In this document: positions 2,634 through 34,798 of the stretch, one piece after another
Layout: each line of letters opens with the position of its first letter
Position numbering within the stretch: position 1 is the first letter of the stretch
Assembly: GCF_005960665.1 (NCBI RefSeq)
Contig: NZ_CP040676.1
Location: 1,808,501 to 1,872,500, forward strand
Source: Exiguobacterium mexicanum
GTDB taxonomy: Bacteria > Bacillota > Bacilli > Exiguobacteriales > Exiguobacteriaceae
Direction: 5' to 3'
DNA: 64,000 nt
Made by a program: the position numbers and the translations under genes
The notes under the pieces: generated by a model
The model's database searches: none
The model's input: the letters and a program-made list of their open reading frames with translations, nothing else
What the model was told of the DNA's origin: nothing

Positions 2634-2640
2634 TGTTTGG

Positions 2641-2919: not shown

Positions 2920-3003
2920 GCGTAAAATTCACCCTTTCCTTCAATATCAGGTTCATTATACCGTGAAACTGAAACGTTGTCACATAATCGCTGTCAGAAC
3001 AAT

Positions 3004-5204
<2,201 letters not shown>

Positions 5205-5208
5205 ATCG

Positions 5209-6204: not shown

Positions 6205-6214
6205 GGTCTCCTCC

Positions 6215-6802: not shown

Positions 6803-6860
6803 GGTCATATCTCCTCTTCATGGGAAAACTGCATTCATTGTACCATAACCACCGCCACGA

Positions 6861-6886
6861 AAAAAGGACAGGCGATTGCCTGTCCT
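6861..6886 (-). terminator. Terminator of the nadBCA operon
   Basis: Inverted repeat AGGACAGGC/GCCTGTCCT with a short loop, followed on the minus strand by a T-run. It begins at the nadA stop codon and separates nadA from ruvA. Confidence 0.85.
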
Positions 6887-7965: not shown

Positions 7966-8797
7966 GTTTGATTCCTCCTACAAGATTTAGACTGCAATCG
8001 AGCGCCGTCACCGAATGCGTCAACTGCCCGATCGAGATGACGTCGACACCCGTACCGCGATACGTTGCGATCGTCTCGACAGTGATACCTCCTGACGCCT
8101 CCGTTTTAATATGTGGTGGTACGAGCGCACGCCACGCCTTCAGTTCTTCTGGCGCCCGGTTGTCGAACATGATGATGTCGGCGTTCGCCGCGATCGCCTC
8201 ATGCAGTTGTTCGAGCGTCTCGACCTCGACTTCAATCGGCGTCGTGTGGCCGGCAAGCATCCGAGCTCGTGCGACCGCGGTCGTGATCCCGCCAAGGGCC
8301 GTGATGTGGTTGTCTTTGATCATGATGGCATCGTCGAGACGGAGCCGATGGTTCTTCCCACCACCCGAACGGACGGCATGTTTCTCAAGCATACGAAGCC
8401 CGGGCGTCGTCTTGCGGGTGTCCGTGACGGCGATCGTCGGGTCGTCGAGCCGTTCGACGCAGCGCCGCGTCATCGTCGCGATCCCGCTCAAGTGCTGGAC
8501 GAGGTTCAACAGCACCCGTTCCGTCTCAAGGAGCGTCCGCGTCTTGCCTCGCAAAATAAAGAGCGTGTCACCTGCCGTGACGTTCGTGCCGTCCGGTTGG
8601 CACGATTCGACGACGAGACGTTGCAACTGCGCCAGCTCGAGGACGACGTCCATGCCGCAGAAGACGCCGTCTGCCTTGGCACTGACCGTGGCGAGCGACG
8701 TCTCGCGGTGGTCAATCAAGGCACTCGAGGCGTCCCCAAACCCGATGTCCTCATGTAAAAATGCTGTCAGCTGTTCGCGCAAGGCGATTTTGTTCAT
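7928..8797 (-). CDS. nadC: Nicotinate-nucleotide diphosphorylase (carboxylating)
   Basis: Converts quinolinate and PRPP to nicotinate mononucleotide and CO2. The 289-residue product carries the family landmarks [46 protein letters not shown] and EASGGI. GGAGGATTCAG precedes the ATG. It overlaps the end of nadB by 47 bp and the start of nadA by 38 bp, so the three genes are tightly linked translationally. Confidence 0.96.
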
Positions 8798-10184
8798 CTG
8801 AATCCTCCGTTCTTATGACGGCACTGGCCAACAGGCGTGCCGCTTTCAGACTCAACGTCTGTTCACTTAATTGTCTTGACACGTGTTTCGTCTGTGCCAG
8901 TTGTTGGGTATTTTCTAAGAAACTTACGATTTCGCCAATCTGAGGCGAGATTGTCAACCATTCCCCAATCTGTTGCCGATAGCGGCTGAACAGATCATCC
9001 GAAACCTCATACACGGTCGTCTCGTTCACCGTGAACGGCTTCTCCTCCACCGTCACCGCTGCCGCCACCCGCTTCCCGAACACCCAGCATTCGAGTAACG
9101 AATTTGACGCCAGTCGATTTTTCCCGTGGACGCCCGAATCGGCGACCTCACCAACCGCATATAACCCAGCGACGGTCGTCCGCCCGTCTACGTCGACGTC
9201 CACACCGCCCATATGAAAATGTAGCCCGGGCCGCACTGGGATCCGCGTCGCGTCGAGCCCATACATCCGGCACGTCTCGACGAGTTTCGGGAACCGTTCA
9301 TCAATTCGCTCGACGCGACTCGTATCCAAGTAGACGGTGCCGTCATGACGCGTGAGTGACCGAGCGACCTCGTCCCTAGGGGCGAGGCTTCCGAGTGGAT
9401 GGTGAGCCATCACGTGACGTCCTGACGCATCGACGAGCGTTGCGCCTGCTCCTCTTAACGCTTCCGTGACGAGGTGGGGCGAATCGACCGCGAGTAACGT
9501 CGGGTGGAATTGGATACGAGACAAGTTCTTGAGTCTCGCCCCGACCTCGTCCGCCAAGACGAGCCCGTCCCCCGTGACCGAGCGACAATTCGACGTCCAA
9601 TCGATGAGTCCACCGATTCCCCCGGTCGCCAAGACGACGGCTCCGGCCTGGACGTGAAGACGTGTCTTTCCGTTGAATCCGGTCGCCCCGGTCACGCGGT
9701 CGTCGGTCTTCACCAACGAATCGATCAATACGTGTTCCATGACGGTCACGTTATCCGGCAATTGACGACGAAGCGTAGCCATCACGTGACGTCCGGTCTC
9801 GTCCCCGCCGACGTGAAAGATTCGATTCATGCCATGCGCCCCTTCACGTCCGACGGCGTACTCAGCACCCTCCCGGTCGAAGACGACACCGAAGCGCTCC
9901 AAATCGCGGATCGCGCTCCGTCCTTCTTCGACGAGTGTATAGACACGGTCGGGCACGGCTGCGAGTTTCGAGGCGACGAGCGTATCCCGCTCATGGTCGA
10001 CACTCGACGGCTCCAAATACGAGCTCGCAATCCCGCCTTGGGCCAGATCTGAGTTCGCGCTTGTCACTTCATGCTTAGAGACGACAAGGACGTTCAATGA
10101 ATGAGGCAAATGGAGTGCCACCGTCACGGCGGCCAAGCCAGCCCCAACGATCAACACATCGACCCGTTCAAACTGTAAAGACAT
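8751..10184 (-). CDS. nadB: L-aspartate oxidase, C-terminally short
   Basis: FAD enzyme that oxidises aspartate to iminoaspartate, the first step of de novo NAD synthesis. The N-terminus has the dinucleotide-binding VLIVGAGLAAVTVAL; later come the SDLAQGGIAS loop, GREGAHG, and the catalytic/capping segment GVHGKNRLASNSLLE. At 477 residues it is shorter than the roughly 530 usual in Bacillus. The family's closing RG.HYR.DYP segment is absent because the frame runs into nadC and stops. The active-site residues I can see are kept, so it is probably functional. AGGTGATATACAG precedes the ATG. Confidence 0.93.
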   Translation of the reverse strand: MSLQFERVDVLIVGAGLAAVTVALHLPHSLNVLVVSKHEVTSANSDLAQGGIASSYLEPSSVDHERDTLVASKLAAVPDRVYTLVEEGRSAIRDLERFGVVFDREGAEYAVGREGAHGMNRIFHVGGDETGRHVMATLRRQLPDNVTVMEHVLIDSLVKTDDRVTGATGFNGKTRLHVQAGAVVLATGGIGGLIDWTSNCRSVTGDGLVLADEVGARLKNLSRIQFHPTLLAVDSPHLVTEALRGAGATLVDASGRHVMAHHPLGSLAPRDEVARSLTRHDGTVYLDTSRVERIDERFPKLVETCRMYGLDATRIPVRPGLHFHMGGVDVDVDGRTTVAGLYAVGEVADSGVHGKNRLASNSLLECWVFGKRVAAAVTVEEKPFTVNETTVYEVSDDLFSRYRQQIGEWLTISPQIGEIVSFLENTQQLAQTKHVSRQLSEQTLSLKAARLLASAVIRTEDSDEQNRLARTADSIFT

Positions 10185-10199
10185 CTGTATATCACCTGT
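10168..10199. promoter_or_regulatory. Probable NiaR operator over the nadB start
   Basis: Minus strand ACAGGTGATATACAGATGT (10199-10181) is an imperfect palindrome of the form ACAnnTG-n5-CAnnTGT, followed in phase by another ACAG box (CTTTACAG). Repeats of this kind resemble the NiaR/YrxA boxes of Bacillus as I remember them. The niaR gene is two genes away. It would block nadB translation initiation or transcription when occupied. Confidence 0.4.
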
Positions 10200-10214
10200 T
10201 TTTCATATGTAATG

Positions 10215-10243
10215 TTGACTTGTAAACTAGTTTCGCATAATTT
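10215..10243 (+). promoter_or_regulatory. Promoter of nifS-niaR
   Basis: TTGACT (10215-10220), 17-bp spacer, TAATTT (10238-10243), ending about 37 bp before the nifS start. Confidence 0.6.
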
Positions 10244-10279
10244 TGTGAAGAAGACAACATGAGAAAAGGGGAACTTACG

Positions 10280-11410
10280 ATGAACCGTTACTTTGATTAT
10301 GCGGCGACGCACCCGATGACAAAATCCGCTCTCGACCATTACGTGGCCATGGCACGAAGCGTATACGGTAACCCGTCTTCCCTCCACACGCACGGCTATA
10401 TGGCGGAAGATTACTTGACCGAATCCCGACGGTTGTTGAAGCAGGCGCTCGGGCTCGACATGCTCCGCGGCAAGCTCCTCTTCACCGGAAGCGGCTCCGA
10501 AAGCAACTACATCGCCCTCACGAGTCTCCGGAAGCGCATGAAAGGCAGTGAAGTCATCACGTCGTGGCAAGAGCACGACTCGGTCGCGCTTCTGCTTGAC
10601 GAGTGGGAAGCAGAAGGCGTGATCGTTCACCGCTTGAAGCTGAAGGACGGACGGTTCGACCACGAGACGTTCACGCATTTGCTCGACCGTGACATCGGGC
10701 TCGTCACGTTCCAACACGTCAACTCGGACACCGGATGGACGCTCCCGCTCCACAACATCCTCTGCCAGTTGAAATATAAGAAAGTGTTGTTCCACGTCGA
10801 CGGCGTCCAGGCGCTCGGCAAGATCCCGGTCTCCGTCGACGGGATTGACGCCTATTCGTTCAGCGCCCATAAAGTCGGGGGCCCGAAAGGCGTCGGCGGC
10901 CTCTATATGGAACGGCTGTTGCCACCGCCCTATTATCCGGGACACCATCAATACGGGATCCGTCCCGGCACCATCGACGTGCCCGGCATCTGCGCTTTCG
11001 TCAAAGCGTTCACCGACCGTCACGAGCAACGGACACGTCATGAAAGAAATTTCTTGGCGTTTCGTGCTATCTTGAAAGAGAAGACATCGTCTTACGTGGA
11101 TTGGCTCGAGTTCGACCAGCAAAGCCCCGCCATCTTCTCGTTCGTCTCGAAACAGCGGGACGGGCAATGGTGGATGACCGAACTCGACGGGCTCGGGTTC
11201 CAAGTGTCGGCAGGGTCGGCCTGTCGGGCCGGCCAGAACGGACCGAACCGGATGCTCGAGTCGCTCGGCTATGAGACGAGCGCCTGTCACGGGCTCGTCC
11301 GCATTTCTTTCGGCGAAGACACGACCGTCGAGGCCACGACGGCACTCGCCGAAGCCATCGTCACTTTAGCAAGGAGAGTTGGATCTTATGAACAAACGCT
11401 TAGCCGGTGA
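10280..11410 (+). CDS. nifS: Cysteine desulfurase, NifS/NadS type
   Basis: PLP enzyme that takes sulfur from cysteine for Fe-S assembly; divergence from nadBCA implies that NadA is its client. About 376 residues. Features: N-terminal YFDYAATHPM, the PLP lysine in FSAHKVGGPKGVGGL, and the persulfide cysteine in SAGSACRAGQNGPN. The ATG at 10280 is preferred because GGGGAAC precedes it and the product then starts directly at the conserved N-terminus; an upstream ATG at 10259 adds only seven unlikely residues. Its end overlaps niaR by 23 bp. Confidence 0.95.
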   Translation: MNRYFDYAATHPMTKSALDHYVAMARSVYGNPSSLHTHGYMAEDYLTESRRLLKQALGLDMLRGKLLFTGSGSESNYIALTSLRKRMKGSEVITSWQEHDSVALLLDEWEAEGVIVHRLKLKDGRFDHETFTHLLDRDIGLVTFQHVNSDTGWTLPLHNILCQLKYKKVLFHVDGVQALGKIPVSVDGIDAYSFSAHKVGGPKGVGGLYMERLLPPPYYPGHHQYGIRPGTIDVPGICAFVKAFTDRHEQRTRHERNFLAFRAILKEKTSSYVDWLEFDQQSPAIFSFVSKQRDGQWWMTELDGLGFQVSAGSACRAGQNGPNRMLESLGYETSACHGLVRISFGEDTTVEATTALAEAIVTLARRVGSYEQTLSR

Positions 11411-11927
11411 AGAACGCCGGCGCACGTTACTGGAAATGATTGAACAGAGTTCCGAGCCGATCACAGGCTCCGAGCTCGCCCGCCGCGTCGCCGTCAGCCG
11501 ACAAGTCGTCGTCCAAGACTTGTCGCTCTTGAAGGCGAAGGGCCATCAGATCGTCGCGACCGCCCGCGGCTACGTCTATCTACCAGGTGAGGCGTCACCG
11601 TCCGCCTATACCCGTAAAATCGTCTGTCGCCACGAGGCCGAGGACATGGAAGCGGAGATGAACGCCATCGTCGACGAGGGCGTCACGATTCGCGACGTCA
11701 TCATCGACCATCCGGTCTACGGTTCATTGACCGGGCAATTGATGGTGAAGAGCCGTCGCGACGTCCGTGCTTTCCTCGAACGGGTCGAGGCGAACCAAGC
11801 CGCCCCGCTGTCGCATTTGACGGGTGGTCTCCACATTCATACGCTCGAGGCCGATAGTGAAGACGCCATTGATGCCGCCGTCTCAGAACTTGAACGGCTC
11901 GGCGTCCTCGTCTCCGAGCTCGACTAA
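11388..11927 (+). CDS. niaR: NAD biosynthesis transcriptional repressor NiaR (YrxA)
   Basis: Nicotinate-responsive repressor of NAD synthesis genes. The 179-residue protein has an N-terminal helix-turn-helix (ITGSELARRVAVSRQVVVQD) and a C-terminal 3H domain whose three conserved histidines lie in CRHEAED, IDHPVYG and HIHTLE. The 3H domain binds a metal and the ligand in family members. AAGGAG lies upstream of the ATG at 11388, within the end of nifS. The nifS-niaR pairing opposite nadBCA is the Bacillus arrangement. Confidence 0.94.
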   Translation: MNKRLAGEERRRTLLEMIEQSSEPITGSELARRVAVSRQVVVQDLSLLKAKGHQIVATARGYVYLPGEASPSAYTRKIVCRHEAEDMEAEMNAIVDEGVTIRDVIIDHPVYGSLTGQLMVKSRRDVRAFLERVEANQAAPLSHLTGGLHIHTLEADSEDAIDAAVSELERLGVLVSELD

Positions 11928-11958
11928 GATGTCACAAATACGTGACATCTTTTCTTTT
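11927..11958 (+). terminator. Terminator of nifS-niaR
   Basis: AGATGTCAC/GTGACATCT inverted repeat with a 6-nt loop and a T-rich tail, starting at the niaR stop. Confidence 0.85.
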
Positions 11959-11983
11959 GCTTTCGACTCATGTTCGTTATACT
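11955..11983 (+). promoter_or_regulatory. Possible promoter of the DedA gene
   Basis: A good -10 (TATACT, 11978-11983) with only a weak -35 (TTTTGC, 11955-11960) about 50 bp before the DedA start. Confidence 0.35.
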
Positions 11984-12031
11984 GATGGATGGAATGCATC
12001 CTGTACAAAATTTGGAAAGGGGGAAACGGTC

Positions 12032-17610: not shown

Positions 17611-17720
17611 ATACGTGCACCTCCTTATTAAACTCAGACTCGCCATCCAGGGCAGGGCGAAACCGTTTCAACCCGTTCTGTGCGGTTGTAGCCATTTGGG
17701 TGCTTCCAAACGAACTAACG
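17611..17720 (-). ncRNA. rplU 5' leader (possible L21 leader RNA)
   Basis: About 110 nt between the rplU promoter and its start, rich in complementary segments (GGCTACAACCGC and GGTTGAAACGGTTTC parts, then CCCTGCCCTGG). Bacillales carry a structured L21 leader at this position that is thought to give autoregulation. Assignment rests on position and self-complementarity, not on a model search. Confidence 0.45.
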
Positions 17721-24263: not shown

Positions 24264-24707
24264 TTAGAGGCCCGGTTGGAGCGGGAGCAATAGCATGGCC
24301 GCGTAAAAGAATACCGCGAAGATCAATACCGGGCGAAAGAACCGCGACGGTTTTTGTCGGGTCGCCCCCGCCATAAAGCTCGACGTCGTCACGACGAACA
24401 CGTAAATTCCGGCATACATGAAGACGAGTTGCGGAATGACTCGCCACACTTGAAGGTCGAGCGAGGAATTGAACCAGGCGACAAATAGAGCCGCATACGC
24501 GATACAAGCACCAATCCCAATGCCGACACCGACAAGCGGCGAGACGCGGTCGAGCCAATGGTCTTCTCGTTGGAACCGTCGAAACAGTACCACACTGATG
24601 AAGACGAACAACGCGAATACGAGAAGTGATAGTACGCGTGGGTCGAGCCGGACAAAACTTGCGACGAGTGCGACGACAAGCATCAATAACCAAATCAATT
24701 TTTCCAA
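24264..24707 (-). CDS. Hypothetical membrane protein
   Basis: A 147-residue hydrophobic protein with about four predicted membrane helices (KLIWLLMLVVALVASF; LLVFALFVFISVVLF; GVGIGIGACIAYAALFVAW; VFMYAGIYVFVVT region and a final helix) and a basic loop before the last. I do not recognise the family. TTG at 24707 is preferred because GAGGTG lies just upstream and a promoter-like TATACT occurs at 24732-24727; an ATG at 24773 would place that promoter inside the gene. It is the first gene beyond the displaced radC fragment. Confidence 0.6.
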   Translation of the reverse strand: MEKLIWLLMLVVALVASFVRLDPRVLSLLVFALFVFISVVLFRRFQREDHWLDRVSPLVGVGIGIGACIAYAALFVAWFNSSLDLQVWRVIPQLVFMYAGIYVFVVTTSSFMAGATRQKPSRFFRPVLIFAVFFYAAMLLLPLQPGL

Positions 24708-24726
24708 TGTAAACACCTCGTATGCC

Positions 24727-24755
24727 AGTATAGCAAACTGATGTCTCGTTTGGAA
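24727..24755 (-). promoter_or_regulatory. Promoter of the 24264-24707 membrane protein gene
   Basis: TATACT (24732-24727) with a TTCCAA-like -35 about 17 bp upstream on the minus strand, 20 bp before the TTG start. Confidence 0.45.
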
Positions 24756-24769
24756 AATAAATTCCAGTT

Positions 24770-25072
24770 TCAACCGTTCATGTAGCCCTGCTGCTTCATA
24801 CTGACGTAATGGTCCTCCCCGATGATGAAATGGTCGAGGCAGGCGATACCGACGATATTGCCCGCTTCGACTAAACGCTCGGACACGTCGATGTCTTCCC
24901 GGCTCGGTGTCGCGTCCCCGCTCGGATGGTTATGGACGGCGATGAAACAAGCGGCCGATAGTTTGAGCGCTTCGCGGAACACATCGCGCGGATGGACGAT
25001 GGACGAATTGAGCCCGCCGACGAACAACGTCTTCCGGGCGATGAGCTGAATCTTCGTGTTCAAATACAGGCA
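24770..25072 (-). pseudogene. Displaced 3' end of radC (direct repeat copy 1)
   Basis: The last 303 bp of a radC gene, with the JAMM metal site [14 protein letters not shown] and the stop codon intact but no N-terminal half. The frame is closed by a TAG immediately beyond the repeat end. It is a direct repeat of 27353-27655, the 3' end of the intact radC. The half next to the junction is nearly identical between copies and the stop-proximal half is more diverged. It is probably the original gene end, pushed away by insertion of the island. Confidence 0.88.
24770..25072. repeat. radC 3' direct repeat, left copy
   Basis: Pairs with 27353-27655 (both 303 bp, same orientation). Similarity ends abruptly in both copies after TTCAAATACAGGCA, marking one edge of the island. 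Confidence 0.85.
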
Positions 25073-25214
25073 TTTAGACTAGATATAAATACTATTAATG
25101 ACTTTTGGATACTCTCTATTCATTTTGCTTCCATTTTATTCATGGATTATAAGACGGTGCTCAAACACTCAGCTTCACTCATGATTGCCAATCTAACTTT
25201 GCAGCTCAGTCTAG

Positions 25215-25346
25215 GCTAACGGCAATGTACGTCTTGCAAACGAAATTGGTGCATATGAGGGCTCGCAGGTCCAACGCGTCGATGATGCAGGAGTTTACTT
25301 CTTCAATATTACGGCCGATGGCAACTGGACGATTAGTGTTGAATAA
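25215..25346 (+). pseudogene. Orphan 3' end of a gene (43 codons)
   Basis: An in-frame stretch bounded upstream by TAG encodes a C-terminus ending GVYFFNITADGNWTISVE. Its composition is higher in GC and more host-like than the rest of the island. The ending looks like a beta-rich C-terminal domain of a surface protein, but I cannot name it. There is no start codon or ribosome binding site, and it is followed by a terminator, so it is the stump of a deleted gene. The 140 bp before it hold nothing I can identify. Confidence 0.55.
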
Positions 25347-25357
25347 TATACTCAAAC

Positions 25358-25393
25358 AAAAAGAAACTCATCGCATCTGATGAGTTTCTTTTT
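25358..25393. terminator. Bidirectional terminator
   Basis: Perfect 15-bp inverted repeat AAAAAGAAACTCATC with a 6-nt loop and T-runs on both sides. It serves the orphan gene end (+) and the small membrane protein gene (-). Confidence 0.9.
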
Positions 25394-25398
25394 GTTAT

Positions 25399-25587
25399 TC
25401 AATTATCCACAGCCTTAGGCTTCTTATTGCCACCATAAAAAATCATGGATGCGGCGATAATAATACAAATCAAACCACCAAGACCTGTAGTAATTATTGA
25501 AAGCTGTTCGTCAAAAAATGCTTTGCTAATTCCAAGGAATATAAGAAATAGCCACCCTATTAGGTTAATCTTAGTTTTTTTAGACAC
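25399..25587 (-). CDS. Small two-helix membrane protein of the island
   Basis: 62 residues: basic N-terminus, helix 1 (LIGWLFLIFLGISKAFF), helix 2 (IITTGLGGLICIIIAASMIFYGG), basic tail. The start is GTG, with AGGAGGAAATAAA upstream. It lies 46 bp after the secreted-protein gene on the same strand, ahead of a shared terminator, so the two are likely co-transcribed. Size and topology would suit an immunity or accessory protein for the secreted partner, but this is inference only. Confidence 0.7.
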   Translation of the reverse strand: MSKKTKINLIGWLFLIFLGISKAFFDEQLSIITTGLGGLICIIIAASMIFYGGNKKPKAVDN

Positions 25588-25633
25588 TTTATTTCCTCCT
25601 AATAAACCAAAGACTTACTAAACTTTTTAAAGA

Positions 25634-26311
25634 TCAATATCTTACAAGTGTAATGTATGCCGCTGGATAATTAGATGTCGTATTTGGTTTAACTGTTAAC
25701 TTTACTCCAGTAATAGTACCTTTAAGTATCATAATAGCTGAATCTTTCCACCACGAAGTTTGACGATTCATCAAATCAGATGCAGTCCAAGCAGTCACAG
25801 TCGCGGCAATACCCGTGAAGTTCGACATACCAGCAATACGTGTAATTGCATAAATTGCAACACTATCTGATAAAGGATTAGAGATATAAAATGGCCAATC
25901 AAACTTATTGTCAATCGAGTCAATTACTCTTATCACTTCAGCCTTACGAAAATATCTTACATAACCTTTAGTACCACCATCAGGCGGCTGAACCACGGCC
26001 ATTGGTGAAATGCTAGACTTTGATAAAGAAGCAGCTAACTTTGTAGGAGCAGTTAGATTTTCTTCTGGACCTACACTCTTTTGGATTTCTGAATTTCTAA
26101 ACGCTGAATCTTCGAGCTTAGCTTGGTACTCTACTACGTGCTCTTTTGGAACTTCAGACATAATTACTTTGGTGTCATCTGAATAGAGTACAACTTGAAC
26201 TGTTTCTTCTAAACTTCCTTCTGAGCCAATTTCTGCAGATGCTTTTTGGAATGGAACTAAGGTTCCTATCATTAACATCATAGCACAAAAAATAACGATT
26301 AACTTCTTCAC
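25634..26311 (-). CDS. Secreted protein of unknown function
   Basis: 225 residues with a clear Sec signal peptide: MKK, hydrophobic core, and an AxA site (KASA) cleaved after residue 26. The next 80 residues are acidic and hydrophilic; the C-terminal half from about 105 (PPDGGTKGYVRYFRK) is rich in aromatic and beta-type residues and contains a conspicuous WWKD. No cysteines remain after signal cleavage. I do not recognise the family. The GTG start is preceded by AGGGGGAATTGAA. It has its own promoter and a perfect 17-bp palindrome between promoter and start, so it is probably regulated. The low-GC codon use marks it as acquired. Confidence 0.75.
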   Translation of the reverse strand: MKKLIVIFCAMMLMIGTLVPFQKASAEIGSEGSLEETVQVVLYSDDTKVIMSEVPKEHVVEYQAKLEDSAFRNSEIQKSVGPEENLTAPTKLAASLSKSSISPMAVVQPPDGGTKGYVRYFRKAEVIRVIDSIDNKFDWPFYISNPLSDSVAIYAITRIAGMSNFTGIAATVTAWTASDLMNRQTSWWKDSAIMILKGTITGVKLTVKPNTTSNYPAAYITLVRY

Positions 26312-26337
26312 TTCAATTCCCCCTGTATCTCTATTTT

Positions 26338-26354
26338 GTTACCAATAAGGTAAC
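26338..26354. promoter_or_regulatory. Palindromic operator before the secreted-protein gene
   Basis: GTTACC-AATAA-GGTAAC, a perfect 6+5+6 inverted repeat. It lies 27 bp upstream of the GTG and just downstream of the -10, where a repressor would block transcription. Confidence 0.5.
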
Positions 26355-26365
26355 TTACTTTTTTC

Positions 26366-26394
26366 ACAATAATTGTAATTACCATTATTTTCAA
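26366..26394 (-). promoter_or_regulatory. Promoter of the secreted-protein gene
   Basis: TTGAAA (26394-26389), 17-bp spacer, TATTGT (26371-26366) on the minus strand. Confidence 0.6.
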
Positions 26395-26496
26395 CGTGCA
26401 AATTATTATTATCGGGCTTATGTTATATCGTTGTAAATTACTCCAACCTAACGAACTATTTTGCTATTGATATTGAATAACTAAATGAGCGCAAAC

Positions 26497-26578
26497 AAAA
26501 ACCACCCGTATGAACTACTCCATAAAAGCCGGATTTTCAGGTCCAACTTTATGGGGAAATTCAGTTAAGATGGTTTTT
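26497..26578. repeat. Nested inverted repeat, possible IS3-family end relic
   Basis: AAAAACCA (26497-26504) pairs with TGGTTTTT (26571-26578). Inside, TGAACTACTCCATAAA (from 26511) opposes the complement of TTTATGGGGAAATTCA (to 26563). The inner 53 bp look like two abutting ends of an IS150-subgroup insertion sequence. The structure also lies right after the ImmA fragment's stop and could act as its terminator. Confidence 0.5.
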
Positions 26579-26579
26579 A

Positions 26580-26921
26580 CTACATTGACTTGAGCTTCCT
26601 AAGTGATTGAATGTCAGACACGGCTGCTGTAGTTTTTGATTTCAGATTCACTTTGAAAAATTCACTCTCGATTCCAGTAAGAGCATGCAAAGACTTGGAA
26701 TCAGAAGCATAAAAGTTTGAAACAAGCTCCTCAATCGTCAATAACAAATTACAATCTAGTACTTGGAGAATACTCTTAAACTTTACAGGAGTAGCAATAG
26801 GGATTATATCGTCAAGAGGTTCTATCTGCCTGTATTTTTTCTGATTCATCACTCTCCAGAAATAACTACTTTGCTCTGGAGTAATCAAAGATAGTTCTTT
26901 TGCTCTCATTTGTAGCTGCAA
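26580..26921 (-). pseudogene. ImmA/IrrE-type peptidase, C-terminal fragment
   Basis: 113 codons whose start (MRAKELSLITPEQSSYFWRV, then KYRQIEPLDDIIPI) resembles the region that follows the HExxH peptidase domain in ImmA/IrrE proteins. The zinc motif and N-terminal half are missing. The frame begins head-to-head with the recombinase fragment, with the two similarities meeting near 26905-26921, so a deletion probably joined them. ImmA-type proteases relieve repression in phages and conjugative elements such as ICEBs1. The family call is by pattern only. Confidence 0.5.
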
Positions 26922-27335
26922 TAGCTGAATGGGAATCTACCAACTTAGGTGAACGTGTACAGCTCGGTCAGATTGAAAAAGCAAGACAAGGCGCATGGTC
27001 CGCTCCCGCTCTTTACGGTTTCAGTAAGAACAATCAAAAACGCCTGGAAGTAAATCCAGACGAGATTGAGGCAGTAAAACTCATGGTGCGTAAGGTTAAA
27101 GAAGGTTATAGCTTCCGCCAACTATCAATGTATACGCAGAACATTTCGTATAAACCGCGCAGAGATTATAAATGGCACATTGGCATAACCAGTGTTTTAC
27201 GGAGCAATGCAATGTAATGATGAGGTGTATGAAAGCACCCATGAAGAAATCATGAGCAAGGAAAGCTTTATGAGTCTCTAGAAAAAGCAAGAAATGAATT
27301 AAAACCATTCAATCAACAAGAAGTAGACATTTTTA
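26900..27335 (+). pseudogene. Large serine recombinase, internal fragment with frameshifts
   Basis: The reading frame from 26900 gives AAIAEWESTNLGERVQLGQI and a following KARQG-WSAPALYGFSK segment, the end of the catalytic domain and start of the recombinase domain in large serine integrases. Downstream, CNDEVYESTHEEIMSKESF and YESLEKARNELKPFNQQEVD continue the alignment in other frames, so at least two frameshifts are present. The N-terminal catalytic part with the serine and the C-terminal DNA-binding part are absent. It abuts the radC repeat, where an integrase gene would be expected. Confidence 0.78.
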
Positions 27336-27352
27336 TGCCTACCTCCCCTTCC

Positions 27353-27655
27353 TCAGCCATTCATATACCCGCGCTGCTTCATACTGACGTAATGGTCCTC
27401 CCCGATGATGACGTGGTCGAGACAAGCGATGCCGACGATATGACCGGCCTCGACGAGCCGCTCCGACACCTCGATGTCTTCCCGGCTCGGGGTCGCGTCC
27501 CCGCTCGGATGGTTATGGACGGCGATGAAACAAGCGGCCGACAGTTTGAGCGCTTCGCGGAACACATCGCGCGGATGGACGATGGACGAATTGAGCCCGC
27601 CGACGAACAACGTCTTCCGGGCGATGAGCTGATTCTTCGTGTTCAAATACAGGCA
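27353..27655. repeat. radC 3' direct repeat, right copy (within intact radC)
   Basis: Same orientation and length as 24770-25072. It forms the last 100 codons of the intact radC. Similarity ends after TTCAAATACAGGCA in both. Confidence 0.85.
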
Positions 27656-27976
27656 GATGAAATGTTCCTGATTCAACAGCCGGAGCTCATCACGGAGCAG
27701 TTCATAGGCGTCCTGCGGCGAACGGATCGTCGGTGTCTCCACTTTCGGTTCCTCGACGTAACGGAGACCGATTGCGAACGCCGCGAGCAACTGTTCGGCT
27801 TTCTTCTTCGTCATGCCCTCGATTTGACAGAGGTCGCTCACGGACGCCTGCGACAGCGCCCGGAGCGTCGGATATACGTCGGACAGCCGTCGGGCCGTCT
27901 CGTGCGGGTCGCCACCCCTGCCCCCGATTTGGAGCAGCCGGGCAATCGCGGATTCAACACTTCGGTCGAGCACCAT
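27353..27976 (-). CDS. radC: RadC family JAMM-domain protein
   Basis: 207 residues: helix-hairpin-helix N-domain (LCQIEGMTKKKAEQLLAA) and a JAMM/MPN-like C-domain with the metal-site signature [14 protein letters not shown]. Biochemical function in the cell is unsettled; the historical DNA-repair role is not well supported. ATG at 27976 follows GAAGGAATGACC; a GTG at 28009 overlapping the maf stop is an alternative. The last 303 bp may have been supplied by the inserted element, since the displaced original end lies at 24770-25072. Confidence 0.9.
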   Translation of the reverse strand: MVLDRSVESAIARLLQIGGRGGDPHETARRLSDVYPTLRALSQASVSDLCQIEGMTKKKAEQLLAAFAIGLRYVEEPKVETPTIRSPQDAYELLRDELRLLNQEHFICLYLNTKNQLIARKTLFVGGLNSSIVHPRDVFREALKLSAACFIAVHNHPSGDATPSREDIEVSERLVEAGHIVGIACLDHVIIGEDHYVSMKQRGYMNG

Positions 27977-28005
27977 GGTCATTCCTTCACCAACTTTCGC
28001 TTCAT

Positions 28006-28593
28006 TCACAGAAAGCGCGGCGATACCCCGTGTCGCTCGAGCGTCTCGACGAGCGGACGGATCGGCAGACCGACGACGTTGTAAAAGTCCCCTTCGAGCC
28101 GTTCGACGAACAGACCGCCCGACCCTTGAATCCCATAGGCACCGGCCTTATCATACGGCTCCGTCGAATCGAGGTAGCCGTCGAGCCACGCGTCCGGGAT
28201 GTCGATGAACGTGACGTGAGTCGTCGTGACGAATAAGTCATACCGCTCGGGCCCGATGATGCTGACGCCGGTAAGTACTTCATGCGTCGCCCCCGATAGG
28301 CGTCGCAGCATGTCCCGCGCGTCGTCCCGGTCTTTCGGCTTCTCTAAAATCGTCCCGTCCAAGACGACGACCGTATCTGAGCCGATGACGACGGCGTCAC
28401 GGTTGTCGCGGGCGACGTCCATCGCCTTCTCGCGGGCGAGGCGTCCGACATACTCGTCCGGATGTTCCCGTCCGTTCGTCCCTTCGATGACGTTCGATGG
28501 GATGACCTCATGGGTGATCCCGGCCTGGGTCAACAGCTCGGTCCGCCGCGGCGACATCGAGGCGAGGATGACACGTTTCTGTGTTGGTTTCAT
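28006..28593 (-). CDS. maf: Maf family nucleotide pyrophosphatase
   Basis: Hydrolyses non-canonical or dTTP/UTP-type nucleotides to monophosphates, 195 residues. Signature ILASMSPRRTELL, GSDTVVVLDG, and EPYDKAGAYGIQGSGG are all present. ATG at 28593 follows GGAAGGAGTCGCTACA. Next to radC as in B. subtilis. Confidence 0.94.
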   Translation of the reverse strand: MKPTQKRVILASMSPRRTELLTQAGITHEVIPSNVIEGTNGREHPDEYVGRLAREKAMDVARDNRDAVVIGSDTVVVLDGTILEKPKDRDDARDMLRRLSGATHEVLTGVSIIGPERYDLFVTTTHVTFIDIPDAWLDGYLDSTEPYDKAGAYGIQGSGGLFVERLEGDFYNVVGLPIRPLVETLERHGVSPRFL

Positions 28594-28654
28594 TGTAGCG
28601 ACTCCTTCCATATGTGCGTAACGGGCTTCTTTCCCGTATCACACTTCACTGTTG

Positions 28655-28683
28655 ATTGTAGGCAAACGGGCAGATGTTTACAA
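28655..28683 (-). promoter_or_regulatory. Promoter of maf-radC
   Basis: TTGTAA (28683-28678), 17-bp spacer, TACAAT (28660-28655) on the minus strand, about 60 bp before maf. Confidence 0.65.
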
Positions 28684-28696
28684 TCCGCGACGCCTC

Positions 28697-28726
28697 AAAA
28701 AAACGTCCCTTCTTTTCGAAGGGACG
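28697..28726 (-). terminator. Terminator of the type IV pilus operon
   Basis: CGTCCCTTC/GAAGGGACG hairpin followed by seven T residues on the minus strand, just after pilO. Confidence 0.88.
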
Positions 28727-28732
28727 CTCGGA

Positions 28733-29440
28733 TTATGGTGTCGTATAGTCGTACACCGGGATGTCTTTCGGTGTGAACGTCTGGGCCGGCACATAGCGGT
28801 CCTCGACGAGTTGATCGAGGTCCGGGCGATAGAACGCGTCGAGTTCGACCGTGAAATCGAGCGGCTCGGCGGTCTCGGTCGTGTTCGGTCCCGTCTCCGC
28901 CGGTCCGTTGAATTGGACCGTGCGCAAGATGTGAATCCGGTTCATCGACTCGACCGACTCGAGGAACAAGACGAGCGACTCGTACGTGTCCGCTTGGAGC
29001 GAGACCGTCGAGCGGACCGATGAGGCGTTGACCGGCGTGATTTCGACCGGTTCGGCTGGTTCAGCCGTCGCGCTCACATCGTTCGGTTCCGGCTCGTCGA
29101 TGTCTTCCGGCACTTCCGTTTCGGCGATGATGCCGTCGGCGAAAGCGATGCTCGTCACACGGACGTCAGACAGTTGACTCGCCTGCGACAACGTCTCGAC
29201 GACCGTGTCGAGCGCTGCTTCGGTCGGGACACGCGTCTGCAGACGCTGTGAGTCGGCGACGTCGACGACTTCGCCTTCTTGACGCAACAGTTCGAGTTTC
29301 GTCTGTTCGAGTGACAGTTCCCGCTCGAGCGATTTGACGTTGCCTTGGTGGATGAAATACTGGTAACCGAAATAAGAAGGTACGGCGATGGCCGCGAACA
29401 AACAGATTGTGAAAATCAAATAAATCGTCGAACGTTTCAT
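28733..29440 (-). CDS. pilO: PilO-like type IV pilus assembly protein
   Basis: Bitopic inner-membrane protein of the pilus alignment subcomplex. 235 residues: one N-terminal helix (IYLIFTICLFAAIAVPSYFGYQYF), a coiled coil (about 35-55), and a periplasm-type ferredoxin-like domain (SDVRVTSIAF, QADTYESLVLFLESVESMNRIHILRTV) interrupted by an acidic, proline-rich loop. It overlaps the PilM-PilN gene by 4 bp (ATGA) and is last in the operon. Sequence similarity is low, so the call rests on architecture and position. Confidence 0.8.
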   Translation of the reverse strand: MKRSTIYLIFTICLFAAIAVPSYFGYQYFIHQGNVKSLERELSLEQTKLELLRQEGEVVDVADSQRLQTRVPTEAALDTVVETLSQASQLSDVRVTSIAFADGIIAETEVPEDIDEPEPNDVSATAEPAEPVEITPVNASSVRSTVSLQADTYESLVLFLESVESMNRIHILRTVQFNGPAETGPNTTETAEPLDFTVELDAFYRPDLDQLVEDRYVPAQTFTPKDIPVYDYTTP

Positions 29441-31065
29441 TCGCTCACCACCTCCTCATCGGCCGTCTCTTCCGTCTCGCCGTCCGGTGTCTCCCCTTCC
29501 GGAGCCTCCGGTTCGACGTTAAGGAACGTGAAGGTGAACTCTCCGATGTAACGCGGGAGCGGTTCGTTCGTCGAGTCGAGCACGCTCGGCGACAGCGTCG
29601 TATCCATGTCGGTGCCCGTTTCTTCCTGTTCCGTCTCCGCTTTCGTCTCGGTCGTCACGCCGAGCAGTTTAACGTTCTCAAACCGTACGTCGTTCAAAAG
29701 TGAGCGTTGGAACACGTTCAAATCGGCGAGCGTCTCAAACTGGGTCCTCACGCTCATGAGCGAACCGTCGGCGTAGTTATACGTCAGCACGTAGCCCGTC
29801 GGCGGCAGTTGTTCCGTCAACGCCCGAAGCGCTGGCACGGCCAACTTCTCCTCGGCCGTGAGCGCCGTCACCGTCTGGTCGAGCGACAGGACTTGCTGGC
29901 CTTTCGAATTCGCTTGCTCGGTCTGGTAAATCCGGACAAGTTGCAATTGTTCCTCAAGTTGAGCCTCATTCTGTTCTAGCTCGTTTACTTCATAATACAA
30001 GTAGCCCGTCGCCCCGCCACCAATCATCAGAGCGAGCAGGCTCACGATAATCGGCCACCGGAGCGTCACATCGGTCGAGTTGATGAAGTTGGCGTCGTGC
30101 TCCTTGTCGAGCGTCGCCATCCCAAGGAGCGGCAACATCTGATGCGACAACGGCGTCGCGTGAGAGAGCGGAAGCGGGTCGGCGATCCGTTTGACCGGCA
30201 CCATCGCCTCACTTTCAATCGTCCGGACAAGGTCGTCGAGGTTCGGGATCGTCCCCGAGACGAGCAACTCGTCAATCGGACGACCGTCCGTCCGGAGCGA
30301 GTAACGATAGAAATCGAGAAAGCGGGCAAGTTCGTTCAACCACTCGTCCGTCTGCGTCGCGAGCGACTCCTTCGAGTCACTATATGTATACGTGATGATC
30401 CCGTCCGTCGTCTCGGCGCGGTACGGGAGATTAGTCTCGATGGCCCGGATGAAGCGAACTTGCCCTTCCTCAAGGACGAGCAACTGGTGCGCGAACGGCG
30501 TCACGTGCCAGATTAGTGTCGATTTGAGCGGGTCGAGCGTCTCAAGTCGGGCTACCCCGTTCGCGATGGCGACCGGACGCGGCACGATTTTCTTCAATTG
30601 GAATCCGCGTTTTTTCATATAAGCGCGGATGGCTTTCGTCAAATCGACCGAGACGGCGTGTAGCATGACCTCGGTCTTCGACTCCGTCTCACCGAGCACC
30701 TCATAGTCGAAGGCGACGTCGTCGAACGGCAAGATGATTGAGCTACCGATTTCCATGAACAGATAGCCACGAATCTCGTCTTTCGGGATTGTCGATGGAA
30801 TCTCGACTTTACGGGACAACACCTCGGTCTCGGCCATATCGACGGCACAGACCATCCCTTTTCGTACTTTCAATTTACGGCACAGTTCATCGAAAGCGAG
30901 ACCGAATGCGTTCTCGTCTTCAATCCGTCCCCCCGTATAGGCGCCTTTCGCCAATTGGACGGTGGCGCTGCGTTTGAACACGCCTTGCTTAATCACGGCC
31001 CCGTGGATGCTGAGCGCATCGAACGAAAAGTAAGCGACCGTTCCTTTCTCTATAGCCCGGCTCAT
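29437..31065 (-). CDS. PilM-PilN fusion, type IV pilus assembly
   Basis: 542 residues combining two proteins that are normally separate. Residues 1 to about 335 are the actin-like PilM ATPase fold (VAYFSFDALSIHGAVIKQG, DELLVSGTIPNLDDLV). A single membrane helix follows (about 337-358), then a coiled coil and a PilN-like extracytoplasmic domain (TGYVLTYNYADGSLM, FENVKLLGV) with an acidic tail. PilM normally binds the cytoplasmic tail of PilN, so the fusion would make that link covalent. GGGGGAAACCAGC precedes the ATG. Confidence 0.83.
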   Translation of the reverse strand: MSRAIEKGTVAYFSFDALSIHGAVIKQGVFKRSATVQLAKGAYTGGRIEDENAFGLAFDELCRKLKVRKGMVCAVDMAETEVLSRKVEIPSTIPKDEIRGYLFMEIGSSIILPFDDVAFDYEVLGETESKTEVMLHAVSVDLTKAIRAYMKKRGFQLKKIVPRPVAIANGVARLETLDPLKSTLIWHVTPFAHQLLVLEEGQVRFIRAIETNLPYRAETTDGIITYTYSDSKESLATQTDEWLNELARFLDFYRYSLRTDGRPIDELLVSGTIPNLDDLVRTIESEAMVPVKRIADPLPLSHATPLSHQMLPLLGMATLDKEHDANFINSTDVTLRWPIIVSLLALMIGGGATGYLYYEVNELEQNEAQLEEQLQLVRIYQTEQANSKGQQVLSLDQTVTALTAEEKLAVPALRALTEQLPPTGYVLTYNYADGSLMSVRTQFETLADLNVFQRSLLNDVRFENVKLLGVTTETKAETEQEETGTDMDTTLSPSVLDSTNEPLPRYIGEFTFTFLNVEPEAPEGETPDGETEETADEEVVSE

Positions 31066-31077
31066 GCTGGTTTCCCC

Positions 31078-31830
31078 CTACATCAAATCAAAATACCAAT
31101 CAAAAAAGCGTTCGCTGAACCAAAATGTCAGCATCGTGCCGAGTGCGATCGACGGCACGAACGGAATCGGCTGTTTGCGATCCATCCGTTTCAAGCCAAT
31201 CAGCGTCAATCCGACGATTGCTCCGATTAAGCTCGATAAAAATAATGCGACGAGGATGTCGCGTGGCCCGAGGACGAGCCCGATTACTGTAAATAGTTTG
31301 ACATCACCGGCCCCAAGTCCCCCCTTGGAAACGAAAAAAACGGTGGCGAGGACAGAAAAGCCGAGCGCCGCTCCGGCAATCGGGCTCCACCAGGCCACAC
31401 CCGCGCCATAGGCGAGCACAATGAGGACCGGTGCCGTGAACAGCAAGATGACGTTCGGCACGAGCATCGTCGACAAATCGGACATCGCCAAGGCGAGGAG
31501 CGTCGATAAGAAGACGAAAGCGAGGATCGTCGTGAGGCTGAAGCCGTACAGCCAGAAGCTATAGGCGTAACCGACCGCTCCAAGTAATTCAAAGAGCGGA
31601 TACGTCGGCGCGATCCGCCCGCCACAGCCGCGGCATTTCCCGCGCAGGAACACGTAACCGAAGACCGGAATCAGTTCCCAAGCGGATAGGACGTGTCCAC
31701 ATGACGGACAGTGCGAGCGCGGCGTGACGATGGACTGTTTGCGTGGCACGCGGAGCCCGACGACGTTCGTGAATGACGTGATGACGGCCCCAAGGACGAG
31801 GCTGTAAATAAGTCCGATGAATTCAACCAA
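31078..31830 (-). CDS. pilD: Prepilin peptidase / N-methyltransferase
   Basis: Membrane aspartyl protease that cleaves and N-methylates prepilins. 250 residues with the zinc-binding CPSCGHVLS...CRGCGGRI domain, and the two catalytic aspartates in MSDLSTMLVPN and GLGAGDVKL; several membrane helices. Equivalent to ComC, which occupies this place after folC in B. subtilis. The start is TTG at 31830 with AAGGAAG upstream. Confidence 0.93.
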   Translation of the reverse strand: MVEFIGLIYSLVLGAVITSFTNVVGLRVPRKQSIVTPRSHCPSCGHVLSAWELIPVFGYVFLRGKCRGCGGRIAPTYPLFELLGAVGYAYSFWLYGFSLTTILAFVFLSTLLALAMSDLSTMLVPNVILLFTAPVLIVLAYGAGVAWWSPIAGAALGFSVLATVFFVSKGGLGAGDVKLFTVIGLVLGPRDILVALFLSSLIGAIVGLTLIGLKRMDRKQPIPFVPSIALGTMLTFWFSERFFDWYFDLM

Positions 31831-31871
31831 TCAAGGTCACTTCCTTACTTGTAAGTATATGCCAAAAACAG

Positions 31872-31910
31872 AAAACCGGCTAGGCTGAGCGAGTGCCCAG
31901 CGCCAGCCGG
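31872..31910 (-). terminator. Terminator after the major pilin gene
   Basis: CCGGCT/AGCCGG with an inner GCTGGGC...GCTCAGC-type pairing, followed by TTTTC on the minus strand. It lies inside the pilus operon and would raise pilin mRNA over downstream genes. Confidence 0.75.
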
Positions 31911-31917
31911 AGAAAGA

Positions 31918-32400
31918 TTAATTAGTAGTTTTGTCGATTACTAAATCTTTTTTCAATGTATCATCTGCAACCGCTGCAGCTTGTCCAATTGCTTTTTTAG
32001 AACCAACTAACTGAACAGTATACGTATATTTATTTCCATTAGGAGTTATAACAACATTAGCATTTGTATAGTTTCCAGTACCAAATGGATCTTTTAAATT
32101 ATCAACATATTGAGTTCCATCTGCTTCACCGTTTGCTAAAGTGCCTGCAAACCGTAATGTCTTTGCAGAATCAACTGGGTTAGATGCAGTATATAGTTTC
32201 GCCGCACTTACCATCTGCTTCGCATCGGCAACCATCGCATCCTTCTTCGAGTTCTCGATAATCCCACCGATTGCGACAACGGCGATCGCTGCGATAATAC
32301 CCAAGATAACGACGACGACGAGCAACTCGACGAGTGTGAGTCCGCGCTCGTCTTTCAATTGTTTGGCATCTTGCCAAATCATTTTCATTTTCTCCAACAT
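31918..32400 (-). CDS. pilA: Major type IV pilin (class III signal)
   Basis: 160-residue prepilin. The prepilin peptidase site lies after Gly20 (KDERG, then LTLVELLVVVVILGIIAAIA), with the assembly-critical Glu at mature position 5. Position 1 of the mature pilin is Leu, not the usual Phe. The C-terminal domain is small, lysine- and asparagine-rich, with no cysteine pair. AAAGGGGAG precedes the ATG. It has its own promoter in a 141-bp AT-rich gap and its own terminator. Confidence 0.92.
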   Translation of the reverse strand: MLEKMKMIWQDAKQLKDERGLTLVELLVVVVILGIIAAIAVVAIGGIIENSKKDAMVADAKQMVSAAKLYTASNPVDSAKTLRFAGTLANGEADGTQYVDNLKDPFGTGNYTNANVVITPNGNKYTYTVQLVGSKKAIGQAAAVADDTLKKDLVIDKTTN

Positions 32401-32482
32401 GATTCATTCTCCCCTTTTGTGTGTTTTGCTGTGATGTAAGCTAGATTCATTACCTTTGATCTAATACTAGTAGAACAATTTT

Positions 32483-32511
32483 ACTATACATTCAAAATTT
32501 AGGATTGAAAA
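32483..32511 (-). promoter_or_regulatory. Promoter of the major pilin gene
   Basis: TTTTCA (32511-32506), 17-bp spacer, TATAGT (32488-32483) on the minus strand. A second candidate, TTGAAT-17-TACTAG, overlaps it. Confidence 0.5.
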
Positions 32512-32541
32512 GATACAAATCTGCAAATAAATAAAAACTTT

Positions 32542-33759
32542 CTACTGATTTTGGATATCGCCATAAATTTGGAACATCGGGACGACAATCGCGATGACGA
32601 TGACGCCGACGATGCTCGCCAAGACGACAATCAACAGCGGCTCGATAATCGATTTCAGACGGTCCGTCGTCGTCTCGACCTCGGTCTCATAAAACTCCGC
32701 CACCTCGTTCAACATCGAGTCCAAATCCCCGCTCTCCTCGCCTACCGCAATCATTTGCGTCATGAGCGGCGGGAAGCTATCGTTCCGTTCGAGCGGTTCA
32801 TGGAGCGGAATCCCTTGTGCCATCATCTTACGTGCTTGAGCAAGACCTTTGCGGATGACCCGGTTCGAGACGATTTTCTCGGTAATCTCGATTGCCGATA
32901 AAATCGGAACCGCCGCTTGTAGCAAGACAGCCAAACTTCGGGTCAATAAGGCGATTTGAGACTTTAGGACGATCGGCCCGAAAATCGGCATCTTCAACAA
33001 CAATCCATCAATCACATACCGTTCCTTGTCGCGCTTCAACATCCACGTAAAGACGAGCAGTGCGAGAAGCGCCCCACCGAAGATGAGCCACCAATAGGCG
33101 GCAACGAAGTCTGACACGGCGACGACGATGCGTGTGATGAGCGGCAATTCTCCGCCGAGCTGTCCGAAGATGCTCGCGAACGTCGGGACGACGTTCACCA
33201 TGAGGAACGCGACGACGCCGATGGCGACGATCGACACGACGAGCGGATACGTCAACGCCGAGATGACTTTCCGTTTGACGTCATATTGTTTTTGGAGCTG
33301 GAGCCCGATTTGGTCGAGCGCCTCCTCCAAGTTCCCGCTCGCCTCACCCGCAAGTGCCATCGAGCTGAAGAAGTTCGAGAACACGCGCGGATGCTTCTTG
33401 ATCGCCTCCGAGAAAGCGATCCCTTCGCGCAAATCGTCCTCGACTTGGCTGAGCGTCTTCTTCAACACTTTCGACTCGGTCTGGACGCGCAAGATGGACG
33501 TCGCCCGAACAATTGGCACGCCGGCCCGGATGAGCGTCGCGAACTGGCGCACGTACATAATCAAATGTTCAATCTTGACTCGCTCGGGGAGCAAGTTCAC
33601 TTCTTTATTCAGTCCGGTCGACTCGAGTTCAGCGAGCTCGGTGACGAGAATCGATTCTTGGCGCAGCTTTTCTTTCGCCTCCCGGAGCGAGACGGCGGTG
33701 ACCCGCCCTTTCTTACGCTTCCCGTTCAGCAGTTTACCTTCGTATTGGAAGATGGCCAT
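32542..33759 (-). CDS. pilC: Type IV pilus platform protein PilC
   Basis: Polytopic inner-membrane platform on which the pilus is assembled, 405 residues. Two type II secretion F domains: each has a helical cytoplasmic part (FATLIRAGVPIVRA; LAVLLQAAVPILSA) and membrane helices (LVVSIVAIGVVAFLMVNVVP; LLIVVLASIVGVIVIAIVVPMF). AGAGAGGTGACTGA precedes the ATG, which is 4 bp after pilT. Confidence 0.95.
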   Translation of the reverse strand: MAIFQYEGKLLNGKRKKGRVTAVSLREAKEKLRQESILVTELAELESTGLNKEVNLLPERVKIEHLIMYVRQFATLIRAGVPIVRATSILRVQTESKVLKKTLSQVEDDLREGIAFSEAIKKHPRVFSNFFSSMALAGEASGNLEEALDQIGLQLQKQYDVKRKVISALTYPLVVSIVAIGVVAFLMVNVVPTFASIFGQLGGELPLITRIVVAVSDFVAAYWWLIFGGALLALLVFTWMLKRDKERYVIDGLLLKMPIFGPIVLKSQIALLTRSLAVLLQAAVPILSAIEITEKIVSNRVIRKGLAQARKMMAQGIPLHEPLERNDSFPPLMTQMIAVGEESGDLDSMLNEVAEFYETEVETTTDRLKSIIEPLLIVVLASIVGVIVIAIVVPMFQIYGDIQNQ

Positions 33760-33763
33760 TCAG

Positions 33764-34798
33764 TCACCTCTCTTCATTTGGTACGGCGTTCGGGTTGATG
33801 ACGCCTTGACGGACGAGCTGTTCGATCGCCATGTCCATCGTCTGCATCCCGTTCTGCCGGTTCGTCTGGATGACGGTCGGGAGTTGGAACTCTTTCTCGT
33901 TCCGAATCAAGTTGGCGACGGCCGGATTGCCGATCATAATCTCCATCGCGGCGACACGACCTTTCGGCACATCGACGCGCGGGAAGAGACGCTGACTGAC
34001 GACACCGAGCAGGACGTTGGCGAGCTGGGTCCGAATCTGATCCTGTTGCTCGGCCGGAAACGCGTCGATGATCCGACTGACGGTCGACATCGCGCTCGAC
34101 GTATGGAGGGTCGCCATGACGAGATGCCCCGTCTCAGCGGCCGTCATCGCCGTCGAAATCGTCTCAAGGTCACGCATCTCCCCGAGCAAAATGACATCCG
34201 GGTCTTGACGGAGCGCGGCCCGAAGACCGTCGACGAACTTCATGACGTCGGAGCCGATCTCGCGTTGGTCGACGATGCTTTGGTCGTGCGAATGCAAATA
34301 CTCGATCGGGTCTTCGAGCGTGATGATGCGTTTCCGCTGTGTGCGGTTGATTTCATGAATCATCGCGGCAAGCGTCGTCGATTTCCCCGACCCCGTTGGT
34401 CCGGTGACGAGGATGAGCCCGTACGGCTTTTCAATCAAACGTTTCAGCACTTGCGGCAAATCGAGCTCGTTCATCGTCGGGATTTCCCCGGAAATAGAAC
34501 GGAACGCGATCGCGACCGTGCCCCGCTGGTAATAGGCGTTGACGCGGAACCGCGATACGCGCGGGACCCCGAACGAGAAGTCGAGGTCGCGCTGCATCTC
34601 GAGCCGCCCCCGCATCTCCTCGGTCATGATGTCTTTCAAATAGCTTTCGATATGGAGCGGCAACACTTTCTCATCACACATCGTGATGAGGCTCCCGTCA
34701 ACCCGGATGATCGGCGGTGAGCCGGCGGTCAAATGGATGTCCGAGGCGCGTTGTTCGACCGCTTTCGTTAAAATCACTTCAATCGACTGATGGATCAT
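33764..34798 (-). CDS. pilT: Type IV pilus retraction ATPase PilT
   Basis: Hexameric ATPase that powers pilus retraction and twitching. 344 residues with Walker A GPTGSGKSTTLA, the Asp box ITLEDPIEYLHS, Walker B VILLGEMRDLET, the His box ATLHTSSA, and the PilT-type C-terminal segment near AAMEIMIGNPAVANLIR. Its presence next to PilB indicates a dynamic pilus. GGAGTGAGTCT precedes the ATG. Confidence 0.96.
   Translation of the reverse strand: MIHQSIEVILTKAVEQRASDIHLTAGSPPIIRVDGSLITMCDEKVLPLHIESYLKDIMTEEMRGRLEMQRDLDFSFGVPRVSRFRVNAYYQRGTVAIAFRSISGEIPTMNELDLPQVLKRLIEKPYGLILVTGPTGSGKSTTLAAMIHEINRTQRKRIITLEDPIEYLHSHDQSIVDQREIGSDVMKFVDGLRAALRQDPDVILLGEMRDLETISTAMTAAETGHLVMATLHTSSAMSTVSRIIDAFPAEQQDQIRTQLANVLLGVVSQRLFPRVDVPKGRVAAMEIMIGNPAVANLIRNEKEFQLPTVIQTNRQNGMQTMDMAIEQLVRQGVINPNAVPNEER

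Follow-up and report, generated by a model that had tools for sequence, protein, structure and literature searches.

The radC locus

In Exiguobacterium the gene radC stands between maf and mreB, an order kept in all 19 genomes of the genus surveyed here (that of the window included), as the first-pass annotation of this DNA had supposed. The window, a stretch of 64,000 nucleotides from Exiguobacterium mexicanum (contig NZ_CP040676.1, positions 1,808,501 to 1,872,500), carries at this locus an intact radC, a second copy of the gene's 3′ end, and between the two a small AT-rich insert, the island that is the subject of this article. In Bacillus subtilis, radC is competence-induced. Its role is still called unclear in a report on radC-specific transposons (PMC3788773).

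The last 303 bp of radC occur twice on the minus strand, at 24770-25072 (the left tail) and 27353-27655 (the right tail), 2583 bp apart from start to start; the repeat-finding tool displays 300 of the 303 bases. Identity between the tails is 92.4% (280/303, 23 differences) with an E-value of 7.7e-126, so the duplication lies far beyond chance. Two radC ends around some 2.3 kb of AT-rich DNA, with one radC intact, had already been described from the letters alone, and the coordinates, this identity and the Pfam match of the complete gene (6.6e-46) bear that description out. The DNA between the tails measures 2.28 kb and has a GC content of 0.33-0.40, against about 0.52-0.62 in the flanks. The two similarities had also been said to stop at the same base. 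They do, running from the stop codon to 25072 and 27655 respectively, but only 25072/25073 is a real junction, the reading of radC continuing unbroken through 27655. The left tail is free of internal stops and differs from the right one at five amino acids. Its surroundings are native, because the membrane-protein open reading frame (ORF) next to it directly follows radC in five of the 19 genomes (G004, G009, G015, G017, G018). No element lies between them there, and these are the island-free strains with an uninterrupted radC that had been proposed for comparison.

Table 1. Features of the radC locus, in window coordinates.
Feature	Position	Strand	Evidence or remark
Downstream membrane-protein ORF (by eye)	24264..24773	-	Directly after radC in 5/19 genomes
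Left copy: 3′ end of radC, displaced, starting at the Cys119 codon; host half of attR	24770..25072	-	
Phage arm of attR	25073..25095	-	Common to G398 and G010
62-amino-acid membrane protein gene (by eye), phage gene	25399..25587	-	G398 protein 93.5% identical
225-amino-acid ORF, secreted-looking by eye	25634..26311	-	No relatives found
Phage DNA colinear with G398, no recognised gene	26344..26578		86.5% over 237
Phage-type repressor, C-terminal fragment	26580..26921	-	PHROG 2439, 3.7e-11; NCBIfam NF052239, 1.1e-21
Large serine integrase pseudogene	26897..27278 (open frame 26900-27217)	+	PHROG 95, 4.3e-21
Terminator-like hairpin after radC, up to the integrase join	27315..27350	-	Fold -17.7 kcal/mol
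Right copy: tail of intact radC	27353..27655	-	No junction at 27655; clade-diagnostic sites
Intact radC, 218 amino acids	27353..28009	-	Full-length RadC, Pfam RadC 6.6e-46

Contents of the insert

The island is a collapsed prophage of the phi105 kind plus one orphan gene. This follows from its fragments of an integrase and a repressor, and from three pieces that are colinear with the phage contig G398 (IMGVR_UViG_3300037045_000353): the integrase (80.5% identical at the DNA level), a non-coding piece (86.5%) and the region of a 62-amino-acid gene (92.5% over 253 bp). The integrase remnant is recognisable by protein match over codons ~121-254, while the DNA alignment reaches codon ~275-280; its N-terminal part and its C-terminal ~200 codons are missing. 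Over codons 121-216 it is 83% identical to the 475-amino-acid integrase of G398. The NF052239 match of the repressor fragment covers residues 286-373 of 377 and stays under the whole-protein cut-off. The orphan is the 225-amino-acid ORF, which has no match in the other 37 genomes of the family (E 0.001) or in the phage collection, and no Pfam or PHROG family at E 1.

Scans of the four island ORFs with Pfam, PHROGs and NCBIfam recognised neither structural or lysis genes nor the tyrosine recombinase domains of tnpA and tnpB, and a plasmid search with the 2.28-kb insert gave no match. The two marks of a phi105-type radC prophage remnant, an integrase of that family and an attR, are both present in the window. 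Those of a working prophage are not: the integrase is truncated, no phage arm lies beside radC, and radC is intact. A 14-bp inverted match to radC at 26824-26837 lies inside the repressor frame and was judged to be chance.

The left junction and its relatives

The left radC copy represents the attR of a prophage of the phi105 family. Its cut lies at the codon used also by phi105, by G398 and in the lysogen G102. In the window, in the Exiguobacterium genome G010 and in G398, one and the same phage arm meets radC at the Cys119 codon; over 41 bases of arm and radC side, the window differs from G398 at three positions and G010 at four. G398 is also the only exact match to the shared arm pattern in the viral_contigs set. 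Bacillus phage phi105 interrupts radC, a member of the ComK regulon, and can carry out specialized transduction (PMC3764409). Its record annotates attP as integrating within radC, and its core aligns to nucleotides (nt) 355-364 of the gene, the same place as the window crossover. Both this alignment and that of the G102 crossover were made by eye, and the phi105 cores given in the record and in the paper differ by 1-2 bases.

Further members of the family were found in a scan of IMG/VR: six contigs whose integrases share 69-94% identity with the G010 fragment, and two more distant ones. The closest, G398, starts in a RadC tail 98% identical to that of the window (residues 116-206) and ends at the stop codon of its integrase. 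Among its genes are those for a tape-measure protein, an endolysin and a CI-like repressor; the comparison covered positions 1-12000 and 25230-34519. In G102, radC is divided by a prophage whose integrase is 58% identical; the halves lie ~39 kb apart, and the crossover is at the same codon. In G403 and G409 the 5′ part of radC stops at residue ~120-123 next to the integrase. The claim that an element had inserted into radC is thereby confirmed, and elements related to it sit at radC in phi105, G398, G010, G102, G403 and G409.

Association with radC as a general trait of this integrase family was considered and rejected. Among 62 genomes with an integrase match at class level, 29 loci were tested with 1.5-kb flanks, and RadC lies within that distance in one, that of G102. 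Of four integrase loci from the family of G102, RadC adjoins those of G102 and G409 and not those of G463 and G464; four of the six phage contigs (G399-G402) show no RadC, although these contigs may be trimmed. In the phage collection 45 records match RadC and 239 match the integrase.

The left junction also bears on the plainest account of the locus, namely that the radC end was duplicated in tandem and that unrelated DNA came to lie between the copies afterwards. Direct orientation and equal length would suit such an origin. Yet the left copy starts at the codon where phi105 crosses over and adjoins a conserved phage arm, and none of the other 17 genomes of the genus has a tandem tail. The pair of tails is confined to the window genome and G010, both of which hold integrase remnants, so the element-free tandem ends that would have spoken for duplication were not seen. 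We regard this account as very improbable.

radC across the genus

An integrase remnant accompanies the second radC tail in the window genome and G010 (2/19) and occurs without a second tail in three further genomes (G002, G008, G011). The remnant of G008 is short (56 bp, 80%, E 1.8e-8) and that of G011 weak (tblastx E 1e-6). In seven genomes (G001, G003, G005, G012, G013, G014, G016) radC is intact, other DNA or deletions lie downstream, and no integrase remnant was found. In the remaining two, G006 and G007, other elements interrupt the gene. The interval between radC and mreB looks like a hotspot for varied cargo.

The radC gene of G006 is split after nt 502 by a group II intron (L037 11209-14000), with Rfam RF02004 and RF00029 at its ends and a reverse-transcriptase-like frame of 641 amino acids inside (by eye). 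In G007 (L038) a Tn554-like element with two tyrosine recombinases and a small third gene splits radC at nt ~515; the halves are ~9 kb apart, and IS21-like genes and an MFS transporter frame were seen by eye within the element. G008 carries a SIR2-domain protein (PF13289, 6.3e-23; L039 2356-3963) just downstream of radC and the integrase remnant. ORFs labelled by eye include ParA, a holin, an M23-type peptidase and IS3 in G010, and IS3 in G005.

The right side

At the right end of an inserted prophage one expects half of radC, a phage arm and the 3′ end of the integrase. The window has instead the whole of radC, a hairpin, and the integrase from codon ~275-280 backwards. The right side is not an attachment site; attL is gone, and with it the last ~200 codons of the integrase. 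Of the att sites whose mapping had been proposed, attR is thus found at the left copy, whereas attL is missing on the radC side. The hairpin was not listed by the consensus terminator scan; its tail is TTCTT and its evidence is the fold.

The same join of radC, hairpin and integrase is found, within alignment error, in the window, G010, G011 and G002, and that of G008 is similar with ~40 bp more missing. It is therefore common to four of the five genomes with an integrase remnant, the fifth having a similar, shorter one. By eye, every one of the six genomes in the comparison clade (G001, G002, G010, G012, G013, G016) has the hairpin behind radC, and G010 has it behind both radC tails. In the window's clade, the four genomes without an integrase remnant (G007, G014, G015, G017) have no such hairpin there.

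In the first-pass annotation the element was thought to have restored radC with its own tail. The attP of the phage would then be accompanied by a radC tail, and a site-specific insertion at nt 355 would break and mend the gene in a single event. This would account for two copies equal in length and beginning at the crossover codon, and for a layout shared by five genomes across two clades as if its parts travelled together; the end of G398 falls exactly where a tail would be. Four relatives read beside the integrase nevertheless show no such tail. RadC-like sequence is absent around the integrase in phi105 (6.5 kb) and AP45 (4.4 kb), nothing tail-like stands between the broken radC and the integrase at the G102 and G403 junctions as read, and the G102 genome has no additional RadC-like tail anywhere at E 1. 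The radC gene is left broken in G102, G403 and G409, and the right tail of the window is not foreign but native-looking, as described below. Moreover, the present layout could not have inserted itself, because its integrase is truncated at the shared join. Repair by a tail of the phage's own is accordingly unsupported, and we hold it to be unlikely, although an Exiguobacterium phage could conceivably bear a tail of this sort, given that G398 ends at the integrase stop codon.

Ancestry of the two tails

Seventy sites separate the two clades; they were used to score radC and its tails, with permutation tests for a switch from one clade to the other. The intact gene has the states of its own clade at 64 of 68 scored sites. 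At 16 diagnostic sites the right tail has 12 own-clade states, two of the other clade and two of neither, and the left tail 11, four and one. No switch is significant, either in the window radC (p 0.26) or in its left tail (p 0.14). With 12/16 own-clade states and no significant switch, the right tail shows no recognisable sign of foreign origin and, judged by these sites, appears native to the host clade. A crossover inside the tail, marked by a reciprocal clade switch, had been promising on a few sites and was dropped when the 70-site set gave it no significance in the window.

Differences between the tails are unevenly spread: two in 164 sites before nt 519 and 21 in 139 after it (Fisher test p 3.3e-6, for a boundary picked after viewing the data). 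The first ~164 bp were probably evened out by later gene conversion. Of the 23 differences, 18 fall at third codon positions and only five alter the protein; together with the lack of an internal stop, this suggests that the two tails diverged mostly as working genes.

These data matter for a further account, in which the repaired arrangement had a single origin in a different species and was passed to this lineage when the maf-radC region was exchanged by homology, with no phage event in the lineage itself. It would explain why the window, G010, G011 and G002 share one join, and why a hairpin usual in the other clade, and not in the window's own, follows radC here. In G008, radC changes to the states of the other clade towards its end (p 0.005, the lowest of six tested); homologous import of a mended end therefore stays alive as a rival. 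The window radC and left tail have no significant switch, and the integrase remnants of the window and G010 form no group (3 v 5 v 1 shared derived sites). A single origin of this sort is conceivable, though rather less likely than not to have occurred; its odds overlap with those of the history preferred below, since the two are compatible.

A proposed history

The evidence shows a phi105-type insertion at codon 119, the loss of attL and of the integrase end, and an intact radC with its hairpin in their place. From this we infer that the radC side was replaced after the insertion or together with it. The history that we consider probable is thus one in which an insertion of the phi105 kind at the Cys119 codon broke radC, the radC side was later or concurrently replaced, and the trapped prophage decayed. 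The large serine integrase of such a phage inserted it at this codon, leaving the left 303-bp copy as the host half of attR. Repair could then have taken either of two routes. By the first, radC+ DNA would enter the cell, recombine through maf/radC homology and be joined illegitimately at the terminator's T-rich end. By the second, a wrongly excised prophage, with a radC tail and terminator replacing the end of its integrase, would integrate by homology of the tail, the vehicle being a radC-carrying transducing phage. Either route would leave the host radC+ and the prophage trapped, because attL and the integrase are lost in both. The trapped prophage would subsequently collapse from tens of kb to 2.3 kb, and gene conversion would later even the first ~164 bp of the tails.

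Several points weigh against this history. The two routes are indistinguishable on present data, and no genome at the step before repair was found. Such a genome would be an Exiguobacterium lysogen in which radC is broken and both attachment sites are present; of G398 only one prophage end is seen. A join common to several species is not what a private repair would lead one to expect, and the integrase remnants do not group. The placement of the join rests on the alignment of decayed DNA and is weakest in G011 and G002. Lastly, the left tail's four other-clade states (4/16), clustered at nt 553-600, need more than simple native descent to account for them.

The shared join could also mean that several lineages independently joined radC and a terminator to the same T-rich spot of the integrase, each time restoring radC and locking the prophage in. 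We think this doubtful; if true, it would suggest selection for keeping radC.

Known systems and significance

A spare 3′ end of the target gene is brought along by some elements, e14 in icd among them. Like them, the window has foreign DNA flanked by direct copies of one gene end. In those cases, however, the end comes from the element, whereas in the window the intact radC ends in native-looking sequence, and one of the two attachment sites has been lost. Finding a gene end in direct repeat thus need not imply an element with a spare end.

Integration of phi105 in radC is already known (PMC3764409). The phage has a related serine integrase, 55% identical over 154 amino acids of the G010 relative, and crosses over at the same place in the gene, but it is a whole phage that leaves radC broken, where the window has a whole radC and a 2.3-kb scrap without attL or a full integrase. 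G398 has the same attR layout, the 93.5% identical small membrane protein and the colinear pieces; unlike the window, it retains a full 475-amino-acid integrase with tail and lysis genes. The transposons Tn558, Tn559 and Tn6188 of the Tn554 family are described as site-specific in radC (PMC3788773). They differ from the island in using tyrosine recombinases and another site further 3′ in radC; an element like Tn554 is found in G007 and not in the window. Searches of the open-licence literature, judged largely by title and abstract, brought up no account of a mended radC beside a truncated phi105-type integrase.

The island is therefore the fossil of an insertion of known type that has reached an unusual end state, and no novel sort of element. 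Where a serine-integrase phage has broken a gene, the gene can regain its wholeness without a clean exit of the phage, and Exiguobacterium is an added genus in which three unrelated kinds of DNA strike radC.

Other features of the window and host genome

Elsewhere in the window, Rfam recognises a T-box leader (47500-47720, minus strand) and an L21 leader (17626-17697, minus strand). The host genome (G000) encodes two more serine integrases, at C4:2571167-2571601 (in a frame of 585 amino acids) and 1917011-1917379 (255 amino acids). A short RadC-like gene, C4:2574845-2575213, lies ~3 kb from the first of these.

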